From the NCBI GenBank assembly GCA_963281255.1, contig OY725491.1:2232001-2296000 (forward strand): a DNA stretch of 64,000 nt. The letters run 5' to 3'. Under the pieces are notes generated by a model that was not told where the DNA came from, made no database searches, and worked only from the letters and a program-made list of their open reading frames with translations. Position numbers and translations under genes: made by a program. Of this stretch, positions 42,805-50,861 are shown in pieces. Source of the DNA: Aphrocallistes beatrix. Its lineage: Eukaryota; Porifera; Hexactinellida; Sceptrulophora; Aphrocallistidae. The first letter of the stretch is position 1. The number at the start of each line of letters is the position of its first letter.

Positions 42805-45800
42805 TCAGCCCTGACAATACTTGTGTATGTGGGTAGTGGTGTCCATCTGCTTAGTGAGGATGAGATTCCCCACACACAACTTACAGCCTACTCGCACTGG
42901 TGTCATCACACACTGCCCCACTCTATGCATACCAAACTGCTCCACCAGTCCTCCAGTCACACTAGCACACACGTGTGCATGGGAGCGAGTAGAGGGCTGA
43001 CTGTACACACTGGACGCTATGCCATCCACCACAATCAGTCCGTTGTTCGTGAAGGGTGCGTAGTATCCCACCTGTGTACACGTGTGGATGTGCAACACGG
43101 GTACTGAGATAGCAGTAGCAGTGGCAGCAGGAGATAACAAGGAATGGATAGTGTCTCCCACTGACAGGTGACCAGCTGGCACTGGTCTCCTCTGCTCTCC
43201 ACTCAGGATGAGATGGCTAGCAGAGATGTGAAGGTGTCCGTGAGGATGTGTGATGTGGAGGAATGTGGCTGTGACGTGAGGATCTCGATGTGCCCAGAGG
43301 TAGACTTTGGAGTAGACAGGTTTGCCTGTGCTGGGATGGATGGATAGCACGTAGTCTCCTATCTTCACTCCATCCATCCTCACTTTCTCTCCTCCTTTCA
43401 AAGTTACACTTGCATTTCCTGGGAAACAAGCTGCATCCGCGTTTTCTACAAATAGTTGATCTATTACAAGATAAGGTGTTCCTCGTACTTCAATTGAATA
43501 TCTGCTCGTAGATTGGTAACTTCCGATGGCTTTTACTCTGGATCTCTCTACCTTATTATCAATTAAACAAAATACAGTATCACCTGCAATGATACTTCCA
43601 ACAGGAACCACTAATGAACTATTATTATCATTTCCTTTCAGGATATTCTTGCCAGTGCTGAGAATTATTTCTCCAAACTGGTGCTCTATCCTTCTATACT
43701 GAAAAGATCCTTTTTTCGCTGATATGTTCTCTACCTTAATAGTTCCATAGTTGCACCAACTTTTTTTATATAAAATCTCATCGCCCTTTATAAGATTTTG
43801 AATTTCAGTTTTACAGCGTTCATTAGCTTCAACTTTGACAACAGTCGATGTTCCGAGAAATCCTCGTCCATTTTTCAACCGCTTTAAAGTTTGCGAAGTG
43901 TTAAGTTCAGAAAATCTTTCAATTGTATCTATTATTTCATATTCTTGAATGGTATCTTTAAATGCATCCTCTGGTAGAAGATTATCAACTGCATTTTCCC
44001 AATCCAATCCACGAGTGTTTTCAGGAAAAATTTTGAATGGCGATATATCAAGAGTTTCGTGTGCAAGTCTAACTTGTATAGACTTCGATTGATCTAACAA
44101 GTCAACAAACTGGAATACTGGTGTAGCCTTTCCATTTGATAGCTGTTCTGTATCTAATGGAATCGGATCTTCAATGAGTGAGTCAACCCACTGGATCCAA
44201 TCCCTGTGTGTGAGATTTTTAAACTTTAACTTTCTTATCATCTGTTTCCCACCTATCCAGCTTAACTGACTGTTCAGAATGCTAGCTTGAATATCTCCCA
44301 ATCCATGATCCTGACCTTCACAACCGAGTTGTAGATCTTCTTCATTCATCTCTAATCGATCAATGAGGTTGTAGAGGAATGACTTGATCAGGTCGAGTTG
44401 TTGGTCGTTTGTATGGTTCTCCATCAGTTGCACTTCTCCCTGTACAACACCTCCACACTCACAAGCAACAATCACGAAATGTCCGTACGTGTTGAAGAAG
44501 TGCTGATACTCCTCTCTCATCTGCTGACTCTCCTCCACCACACTGGAGTCAGGCAGAGCTGCTACTGCCTCCTTGAAGGCAGGGCTGAGATGAGGGATCA
44601 GCTGCTGTTGATTGGAGAGAAGTCTGATACAGCGGACACTCTGACTGATCTGGAACTGGTACTTGACACATCCTGCCTGTGCTTCGTTGTTATTTTCTTT
44701 CAGTAAGACACGTGTAGTTTCAATGGGAATCACTGCTTCCATACATTTGGGTACTTTCAAATTTGCCATCACATGTGACTCATCAACTAATAATGCCTGG
44801 ATTAGATTACTTTTAGTTATAATTCCTTGTTCGGTATTGACTCCATGACCTATAGTTTCGATTATTTGAGGAATATTAAAAGGAATGACACCGCACACTT
44901 TTATCAGAGCTTTCGATTCAATCTCATCAATCTCGTAAGGAGTCAAGAGCTCCTTGAGTTGATTGAGTGTCTTTGATTGGAGTTGTTTTAGTTCGCTGAT
45001 TTTCCTTTTCTCCATTTCCAAGATCAATCTGTTGAGTATATCTGGATCGCCATATGTATCTATTTGTGTATTTGCGTAATCAAATAATGCATTATTTACT
45101 TCATTTGAACTTAGTTCTATAAACTGAGAGGCGAGTTCATTTTTCCATTTCCTTACATAACCGATTGATAATGCAGTTGGATTGGACTTTCTCCTACATT
45201 TTGGATGATTGGTGCCTCTAGACATTACAAATATTCGAATTGCTTCTTGACCCACTTCATCCTTACACCTTTTTGTCATCGCCATCATTGTCTTTAGTAC
45301 ATTGATTGGTTGAGGTGTCCCATCCCTCAAAACAGTCCAATCTTCGCCTTTTTTGTCTAATTCATGTGCTTCCCATTTATTTTCGATATGTACAATTTCA
45401 GGTTTTATTCCAAGTATTTCATTTGATAGAGTGTTCAAGCATTTTTCAATTCCTTTAATTGTGTCTTTATATTCTCCTTTAGCAATGCTATGCACATTAG
45501 TGAGAACGAATAGGACATTGGGGCGTTTTCTATCTACAATTCTCAATTTCGAGAGATTATGTATCATAGCATAAAGGGAACCATTATCACTTCCTCCAGA
45601 CCTTTTATTTGTTGTATCTATTGCAACAAGTATAATACTGGGATACATTTTAAAATGTTTACAACCTAGATAAGGATGGCTTTTAATGAAATAGTCTATA
45701 TTGGCCATATTAAAAGCGTCCTGATCCCCTTTTCTCGTGTCATTCCATCCTGGTACATCAATAAAACCAATTTCAAGATTTGTAACTTTCCATTCATCAC

Positions 45801-50300: not shown

Positions 50301-50861
50301 AGCACCATCTCCTACAAGTCTATCATCGTCAGCTCTGATAGCCACCAGCACTATGCTCGGGTAGCATTTGTAGGCGAGACAGCCGAGGTATGAGTGATTG
50401 ACGAGGAAGTGGTCAATCGTGGCTACATTCCTGATGTCCTGCTCCTCCCCATCCGTGTCAAACCAACCGGGCATGTCTATGAAGCCTATGTCCAGATTCC
50501 TGACACGCCACTCGTGACTGACCATACTCGCCACATACTCTGTGACTAGTTTGGTGTGGGAGGCTTTGTTCTGTTCGATATTGATGAGTTCAAATCCGAA
50601 CAAATGATTGAGAGAGGCTGTTTTTCCAGCTCCACTCAATCCATACACGAAGATGATGGCTTCATTACATGCTCTATGTGCCTTCAAACTATTCCCTACC
50701 ATCTCCATTCCTCGTTCTAATATATTCCCTTTTGCTAATTCTTGAGCTTGATAGACACTATCTGGCAGTTCAAAGTACAAGTCGCTGCTCCTTAAGGATC
50801 TGTAATTACAGTCTTCTTGAGTCTCATTTGAACTCGAAGAATTCTGGTGCTTTTCAGCCAT
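47397..50861 (-). CDS. GTPase / MACPF-like / tandem Hint fusion protein (paralogue 2)
   Basis: A single 1154-residue frame from the ATG at 50861. GTPase: Walker A GLSGAGKT at 74-81, DMPGWFDTDG switch, ILVAIRADDDR strand. MACPF-like: VVIPIERRRVEWKRM..., YQHFFNTYGHFVIVAYECGG, then WTASLHENPAPP and PIYELVALLDP. A first Hint-like module runs from Cys795 (LCFRGSWDNYG, VTLGDKILS, THQYGEIVIGTKHTIL with His862, KDIYPGSVIYYI, SRIVVNQVV), leading without a linker into the second Hint at Cys939 (CFPGNASV, His1010, YYAPFTNNGLIVVDGIASSV). Cys-to-His spacing is 67 and 71 residues, supporting homology. A Cys/His-containing tail follows. Possible roles are GTP-controlled membrane activity with self-cleavage, but this is inference. 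It lies 1.2 kb upstream of its paralogue in the same orientation, indicating tandem duplication. Confidence 0.8.
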   Translation of the reverse strand: MAEKHQNSSSSNETQEDCNYRSLRSSDLYFELPDSVYQAQELAKGNILERGMEMVGNSLKAHRACNEAIIFVYGLSGAGKTASLNHLFGFELINIEQNKASHTKLVTEYVASMVSHEWRVRNLDIGFIDMPGWFDTDGEEQDIRNVATIDHFLVNHSYLGCLAYKCYPSIVLVAIRADDDRLVGDGAKVPRMFRVLSKLNIVDKQRPNLLIILTRVLSVGRKNFKTRLKKSIETVEQLAYQYLEVEPAIVYVENDTEEYEELEEKKGDWTVLRDGTLQPKNVFEAMMQLTSEHKDEVGQEAIRLYFASRGSNNPLVRSHSSPDAVSRDQIRKWRAIIQQTFPPIPNNEVSRALQSYAQSHPQSFPPSSLYKLMEELSTNSLTHLDTLRTLSLDQLQRKLSPYNLSQLECQALMEGCGVRPPQWTHIFQHIGYGVNMGISSSPETETAPLLCSSPVFTVTGECCQEGELTVPTCMQVVIPIERRRVEWKRMEPAPQTDKRELAHPVKYQFQISQCVRCIRLLSNQQQLIPHLSPAFKEAVAALPDSSVVEESQQMREEYQHFFNTYGHFVIVAYECGGVVQGEVQLMEKDANDKQQIIKSYINNLLEKIEADRKDRTINFEEKMSKIENKKDSPPAVCWKGAVKGERSDLFYELENAALSWKGGLTPPGCTLHSLTHHAWMEWTASLHENPAPPDYSQLDMDTVLPIYELVALLDPLKRDQVEQAVNLINPEFGNSSFYILSLGTSVVSKESSGESVITEPEYISSSLCNRESLSRKHISETLQIALGGFPEDALCFRGSWDNYGTVNIRDVTLGDKILSRDPWWIRFTEVVRVNSDKEEENKTFNYIKITHQYGEIVIGTKHTILVKIPYKPPELILAKDIYPGSVIYYIDHVKRTTQKSIVQNISLTLGKGHYSLKQREEFSRIVVNQVVTGNAEAACFPGNASVTLKGGEKVRMDEVKIGDYVLSIHSSTGKPVYSKVYLWAHRDPHVTATFLHITHPHGHLHISASHLILSGEQRRPVPAGHLSVGDTIHSLLSPAATATAISVPVLHIHTCTQVGYYAPFTNNGLIVVDGIASSVYSQPSTRSHAHVCASVTGGLVEQFGMHRVGQCVMTPVRVGCKLCVGNLILTKQMDTTTHIHKYCQWLMKIYERFI

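Follow-up and report, generated by a model that had tools for sequence, protein, structure and literature searches.

A clustered family of glass-sponge proteins combining a GTPase, a MACPF domain and a dead and an apparently live Hedgehog-type Hint domain in one chain

Within a 64,000-nucleotide stretch of the genome of the glass sponge Aphrocallistes beatrix (contig OY725491.1, C4:2232001-2296000 in our numbering; hereafter the window), two neighbouring genes on the reverse strand encode long proteins in which a P-loop GTPase, a MACPF domain and Hedgehog-type Hint domains share a single chain. Gene 1 (42805-46161, 1118 residues) and gene 2 (47397-50861, 1154 residues) each run unbroken from an ATG, over lengths that are beyond chance, as the next-longest stop-to-stop frame in the 64-kb window has only 425 residues. 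They are tandem paralogues encoding single-chain multidomain proteins, and this combination, proposed together with the two unbroken frames in a preliminary description made from the sequence letters, was recovered in Pfam searches, with a family profile and in predicted folds. The domain content and order, the predicted folds, the conservation and the family structure are established here. Long single frames agree with the many single-exon genes mentioned in the available portion of the Aphrocallistes genome paper. Between the two genes lies a tandem array of 11-bp units, part of it inverted (46486-46876). Gene 1 stops nine residues before gene 2 through a one-base difference (42805-42813), and P0001, a near-identical database relative of gene 1, has a longer C-terminal end.

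The N-terminal part of each protein is the GTPase, at approximately residues 51-316 in gene 1 (45214-46011, with borders taken from the alignment to gene 2) and residues 45-310 in gene 2 (49932-50729). The Walker A motifs GLTGAGKT (45901-45924) and GLSGAGKT (50619-50642) begin at residues 80 and 74, respectively, where the preliminary description had placed them. Single-sequence matches are faint: MMR_HSR1 was found at E = 0.002 in gene 1 and 0.0023 in gene 2, both below the curated cut-off, and the AIG1 profile gave gene 2 15.7 bits against a cut-off of 27 and did not list gene 1. Of 11 family members, 8 match the same AIG1 profile at E ≤ 0.01, the strongest at 1.2e-6, and the domain is detected both with the family profile and as a predicted fold. 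Its G3 motif reads D-x-P-G, and it is probably of paraseptin type, from the AIG1/GIMAP/Toc34/septin side of the TRAFAC GTPases. The Walker A lysine is present in 43 of the 48 rows with a residue at that position; in the other five (P0017, P0027, P0033, P0034 and P0036) it is alanine, accompanied in four of them by asparagine for the G3 aspartate. A subfamily with a predicted defective switch thus exists beside normal members, and these five proteins are likely to be a non-hydrolysing or non-binding branch.

The MACPF domain follows at approximately residues 428-730 in gene 1 (43972-44880; the Pfam match spans 502-669, and the borders again come from the alignment to gene 2) and residues 428-730 in gene 2 (48672-49580). 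Its Pfam matches lie above the curated cut-off in both proteins (E = 1.5e-8 and 1.7e-10), and the YGHF and CGG motifs named in the preliminary description stand at residues 559 and 569 in gene 1 and 565 and 575 in gene 2. Because a Foldseek search with the whole-protein model mostly probes the pseudo-Hint described below, the MACPF part was folded separately, and this model returned the MACPF fold, so that both a GTPase and a MACPF fold are predicted; the lack of such folds, which the preliminary description had named as refuting its reading, did not come about. The fold matches include secreted toxins and also astrotactin-2, a MACPF protein that is not known to be lytic. Neither window protein has an EGF or C2 match in Pfam.

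The C-terminal Hint matches its Pfam profile well above the cut-off (PF01079, cut-off 29.7: 103.4 bits, E = 1.7e-29 for gene 1; 133.9 bits, E = 7.8e-39 for gene 2). The preliminary description was right about its presence and about its CFPGN (residues 912 and 939) and SASH (980 and 1007) motifs; it overlooked a second, degenerate Hint directly upstream and an aspartate-to-histidine change within the live one. The inner, dead Hint covers approximately residues 767-909 of gene 1 (43435-43863) and 788-936 of gene 2 (48054-48500), with glycine at the catalytic cysteine position (Gly788 in gene 2, at the place of Hedgehog Cys258) in 43 of 43 proteins. The outer Hint core occupies approximately residues 912-1054 of gene 1 (43000-43428) and 939-1081 of gene 2 (47619-48047). 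Here the nucleophile Cys1 (Cys912 and Cys939) is kept in all 53 rows, as is the histidine of the [ST]xxH motif (S980xxH983 in gene 1; Ser1007-x-x-His1010 in gene 2), whose first position is serine in 49 and threonine in 4. A C-terminal extension, modelled at low confidence, follows at 42808-42999 in gene 1 and 47400-47618 in gene 2 (residues 1082-1154); it measures 60-91 residues in 52 of 53 rows and lies at the place of the Hedgehog sterol-recognition region.

In an alignment to Drosophila Hedgehog, the general base Asp46 (Asp303) is replaced by histidine (His958 in gene 1, His985 in gene 2) in 53 of 53 outer Hints, and Cys143 (Cys400), the cysteine of the closing SCY motif, aligns to residue 1079, valine in 50 rows and isoleucine in 3. 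According to the excerpted text of two reviews, Asp303 of Hedgehog both restrains Cys258 and activates cholesterol, and the substitution D303H (D46H) leaves structure and activity intact and broadens the range of sterols accepted (PMC9163320, PMC8529194); the first of these excerpts adds that dithiothreitol (DTT) brings about cutting more easily in the D303A, N, R and E mutants. A motif J cysteine, perhaps the same residue as Cys143/400, is reported, in the consulted part of PMC2362128, to be changed in several Hog domains. At the general-base position, the live Hint resembles Hedgehog D46H and not the wild type. Some nematode Hog domains may carry histidine at the Asp46 position, which would make the swap less striking. 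Hedgehog proper was rejected as an identity for these proteins, as they are without a Hedge domain: neither has a Pfam match to it at E ≤ 1, and their N terminus is GTPase-MACPF. As the preliminary description remarked, no signal peptide is obvious in either protein, as judged by hydropathy alone: of 53 starts scanned, the six most hydrophobic belong to other proteins.

The two genes belong to a larger family. The 100.5-Mb genome (28 contigs) contains 25 Hint matches, on contigs C4, C7, C12 and C16 (some genes contribute two), no fewer than 35 MACPF matches and, from 72 candidates of which 41 were scored, 71 matches to protein 1; in the Hint and MACPF searches, 1 of 14 control genomes matched in each, below the cut-off for Hint and above it for MACPF (Bacteroides). 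The 91 AIG1 matches are not a gene count, as the same search matches 12 of 14 control genomes, Escherichia coli included. Our own domain profiles, applied to frames of at least 250 residues in 20 fetched genome stretches, found GTPase-MACPF without Hint on C1, C7 and C16; GTPase-MACPF-Hint on C7, C12 and C16; and GTPase-MACPF-dead Hint-Hint in eight whole C16 frames besides the two window genes, with one further C16 dead-plus-live-Hint frame broken by a stop and also without most of its MACPF domain. Head-to-tail GTPase-MACPF fusions occur on C12 and C2. At C12:1024151-1035040 and its neighbours (L018-L020), a 3630-residue unbroken frame holds five head-to-tail GTPase-MACPF units with a 707-codon period, beside a 1509-residue frame with two units and a 1448-residue frame with two (the first cut at its start) followed by a Hint; units 2 and 4 of the five-unit frame show 100% identity, which may reflect a recent duplication or a fault in the assembly. 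A 1284-residue frame at C2:201271-205122, in a stretch that includes 200 N, has the order GTPase-MACPF-GTPase. At C16:202164-203579, a 472-residue MACPF frame has a hydrophobic, leader-like start and no GTPase or Hint profile match, and C12:534020-713489 holds a dense run of AIG1-profile frames, many of about 520-560 residues, which may belong to that or, the profile being loose, to another family.

Three protein searches (51, 31 and 54 hits at E ≤ 0.001) yielded 66 proteins that look like family members; the search with 31 hits scored only the 7996 candidates sharing most words, and limits on candidate length exclude short and very long relatives. All seven relatives named to species are from the glass sponge Oopsacas minuta, and from these seven of 66 the family is probably confined to glass sponges. 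P0001 shares 99% identity with gene 1 and P0004 with gene 2, and both relatives sit on contigs of one length (316919), which makes it probable that a second database record carries the tandem pair; the entry for P0004 starts at residue 130 of gene 2. Oopsacas shows the same three types, GTPase-MACPF, GTPase-MACPF-Hint and GTPase-MACPF-dead Hint-Hint, with no Hint-type stretch in P0056, one in P0042 and P0048 and two in P0015, P0016 and P0028. A further Oopsacas protein of 1121 residues, P0060 (LOD99_11391), has three by our profiles. Three of the relatives carry the successive tags LOD99_14045, 14046 and 14047. Identity to the two-Hint proteins P0015, P0016 and P0028 is 61-67% for the live Hint of gene 2 and, with protein 1 as a different and whole-length query, 35-41%.

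A tree built from 75 different GTPase domains places all 43 distinct rows with two Hints on one side of a fork with support 94/95 (midpoint root), just short of the program's star. That side also holds two shorter Hint-less predictions and the three-Hint protein, and these three rows account for the four changes counted in the two-Hint trait (against 24.4 with shuffled labels). The grouping fits a single gain of the dead Hint. A prokaryotic origin, or prokaryotic relatives, was rejected, as none of 594 pattern matches to the N-terminal profile in a collection of bacterial and archaeal genomes was confirmed by tblastn; at E ≤ 0.01, neither protein matched anything in PADLOC or NCBIfam.

Two gene conversion tracts connect genes 1 and 2. 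A 300-nucleotide tract at 42811-43110 is 100% identical to 47430-47729, and a 272-nucleotide tract in the MACPF core (44397-44668) is 96% identical to 49079-49350, both on the reverse strand. In blocks of 40 codons, third-codon identity between the genes mostly lies at 0.20-0.55, with a single block at 0.65, and rises to 0.88-1.00 at residues 498-577 and 0.93-1.00 at residues 928-1145 of protein 2.

Elsewhere in the window, a 729-bp element at 41540-42268, flanked by terminal inverted repeats some 176-181 bp long, resembles a miniature inverted-repeat transposable element; a genome search with 530 candidates, 40 of them scored, gave 33 further near-full-length copies at 86-95% identity. Other frames match NHL repeats (12201-13346, 15644-16258 and 58873-59634), DUF4371 (24796-25593), which we take to be transposase-associated, a TRAF-type zinc finger (27349-28623) and PEMT/ICMT methyltransferases (56786-57418). 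Rfam gave no match within the window at gathering scores.

The reading that we favour, with moderate confidence, is that these genes belong to a clustered glass-sponge family in which a paraseptin GTPase, a helical linker (residues 311-427 in gene 2), a MACPF domain, a dead Hint, a live Hint and a C-terminal extension make up a self-cleaving, membrane-assembling protein. Such a protein would be synthesized in the cytosol; its live Hint would form a thioester at Cys939 (Cys912 in gene 1) and then be released; and the cut before this cysteine would leave GTPase, MACPF and pseudo-Hint together and place the dead Hint within a few residues of the newly made C terminus. As histidine replaces the aspartate general base, that terminus would probably bear a sterol or another small nucleophile. 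A paraseptin GTPase and a MACPF domain in one chain suggest membrane assembly and insertion, in which GTP-dependent assembly could gather MACPF domains for insertion into, for example, the membranes around ingested microbes. Self-cleavage we infer from Hedgehog chemistry and, more weakly, lipid transfer, GTP-driven assembly, pore formation and a role in defence. Clustering, changes in copy number and gene conversion resemble what is found in immune families. Coral GiMAPs, according to the consulted part of PMC3723955, are clustered in the genome and respond to a bacterial cell wall product; together, these likenesses make defence a fair guess, no more.

A bolder version of the favoured reading can be put forward only tentatively: a GTPase-perforin of intracellular immunity that severs its own Hint, sterylates itself through an evolved aspartate-to-histidine base, is gated by GTP and restrained by the dead Hint at the cut site, and serves as a defence machine of one sponge class, with no counterpart among described perforins or Hedgehog-like proteins.

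Several observations weigh against a self-cleaving, membrane-assembling protein. The G4 motif is of the T[HNRY] type and not the canonical [NT]KxD, which, together with the alanine in place of the Walker A lysine in part of the rows, suggests that some family members may do without GTP binding. With the equivalents of Asp303 and Cys400 both absent, Hedgehog-like sterol transfer is not established. The live Hint is modelled poorly (10-residue means of the predicted local distance difference test of 36-75, mostly 50-63, up to residue 1060, and below 35 just after) and is therefore assigned by its sequence. Astrotactin-2, one of the matches, belongs to the MACPF proteins with no known lytic activity, and the defence role rests on analogy and clustering. 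The ratio of non-synonymous to synonymous change is 0.50-0.73 over whole genes in five pairs, a weak constraint; it is 1.03-1.44 in the Hint part of three close C16 pairs, which differ by few changes, and above 1 in several 150-codon windows. Two more distant pairs gave 0.38 and 0.44 for the Hint part, and gene conversion confounds all these figures; constraint, as read from the sequences, is present but weak, or blurred by conversion.

The missing aspartate also opens an alternative in which the Hint is cut without lipid, by hydrolysis or by a small thiol, and acts as a safety lock on the GTPase-MACPF part, the extension being no sterol binder. Loss of the residue that, in Hedgehog, restrains Cys258 and activates cholesterol fits this, as do the absence of Cys400 and the DTT sensitivity of the D303A, N, R and E mutants in the excerpt of PMC9163320. 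Yet the replacement is invariably the one reported, in the accessible text of PMC8529194 and PMC9163320, to preserve sterol transfer, and the extension is almost always retained, which leaves lipid-free cleavage a serious but somewhat unlikely possibility. Nor does it seem probable that the proteins are non-lytic, non-cleaving scaffolds, in which the MACPF domain and both Hints serve as interaction modules of a structural or trafficking GTPase: one Hint without its nucleophile, the astrotactin-2 match and the broken Walker A rows would suit such a role, but Cys1 and [ST]xxH are kept throughout the outer Hints while the adjoining dead Hint has drifted, a pattern that fits retained chemistry in the outer Hint.

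A secreted pore-forming toxin or venom-like protein, released by an unconventional route, is very improbable. The secreted toxins among the fold matches point that way, whereas the N-terminal GTPase and the hydropathy of the two protein starts, neither of them in the top six of 53, point the other, and a separate MACPF frame with a leader-like start lies elsewhere in the genome, at C16:202164. We give equally little credence to an artefact of fused neighbours or decaying pseudogenes. Stop-broken family members, the shortened gene 1 and the late start of P0004 could be cited for it, but both frames stay open throughout their 1118 and 1154 codons and the same domain order is found in Oopsacas minuta proteins and in eight more whole frames of this genome, a recurrence for which chance fusion of adjacent genes was rejected.

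What is known of Hint self-cleavage in animals comes mainly from Hedgehog-type signals, which are secreted, and perforins are known chiefly as secreted or vesicular proteins. A cytosolic chain uniting Hint, perforin and an immune-type GTPase would show an early-branching animal building a conditional membrane attacker. The invariant histidine would be nature's counterpart of an engineered Hedgehog enzyme and a source of new Hint catalysts, and the dead-plus-live pair raises a direct question about how self-cleavage is regulated.

The preliminary description knew of no such architecture. The joining of GTPase and Hint without a signal peptide is not unprecedented: the fungal protein GmGIN1 of Glomus mosseae carries an AIG1-like GTPase and a Hog domain in one chain lacking a signal peptide (PMC2362128), and Biomphalaria snail genes encode AIG1 with a C-terminal Hint (PMC7053062), both as stated in the accessible portions of these papers. 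Compared by description and not by sequence, the sponge proteins share with GmGIN1 the upstream GTPase of AIG1/Toc34/septin type, the downstream Hedgehog-type Hint and, as far as hydropathy indicates, the lack of a signal peptide, and with the snail proteins an AIG1-type GTPase and C-terminal Hint in an expanded, clustered animal GTPase family; a MACPF domain or second Hint is not mentioned in that portion of PMC2362128, and in PMC7053062 the word MACPF is absent from the main text and a dead/live Hint pair was not seen. The searched titles and excerpts of the open-licence PMC literature describe neither MACPF with Hint, nor MACPF with an AIG1-type GTPase, nor any animal protein in which a dead and a live Hint stand in tandem, and a term search of the genome papers on Oopsacas and Aphrocallistes found none of the words MACPF, perforin, hedgehog and GTPase in their main texts. 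With the Hint of Hedgehog (1at0, 6tyy), the sponge domain shares the profile and fold, Cys1, [ST]xxH and a C-terminal extension; it differs in the histidine for Asp46, the valine or isoleucine for Cys143, the lack of a Hedge domain and the dead Hint that precedes it. The GTPase shares the P-loop fold, as predicted, G1 and G3 with GIMAP, Toc34 and septin GTPases, and genomic clustering with coral GiMAPs as described in the consulted part of PMC3723955, but has T[HNRY]xx at G4 and added MACPF and Hint modules. Unlike perforin, MPEG1 and complement proteins, the sponge MACPF domain is fused to a GTPase and Hint, with no EGF or C2 match. What appears to be new is therefore a perforin module and a dead/live Hint tandem set on an already known GTPase-Hog theme.

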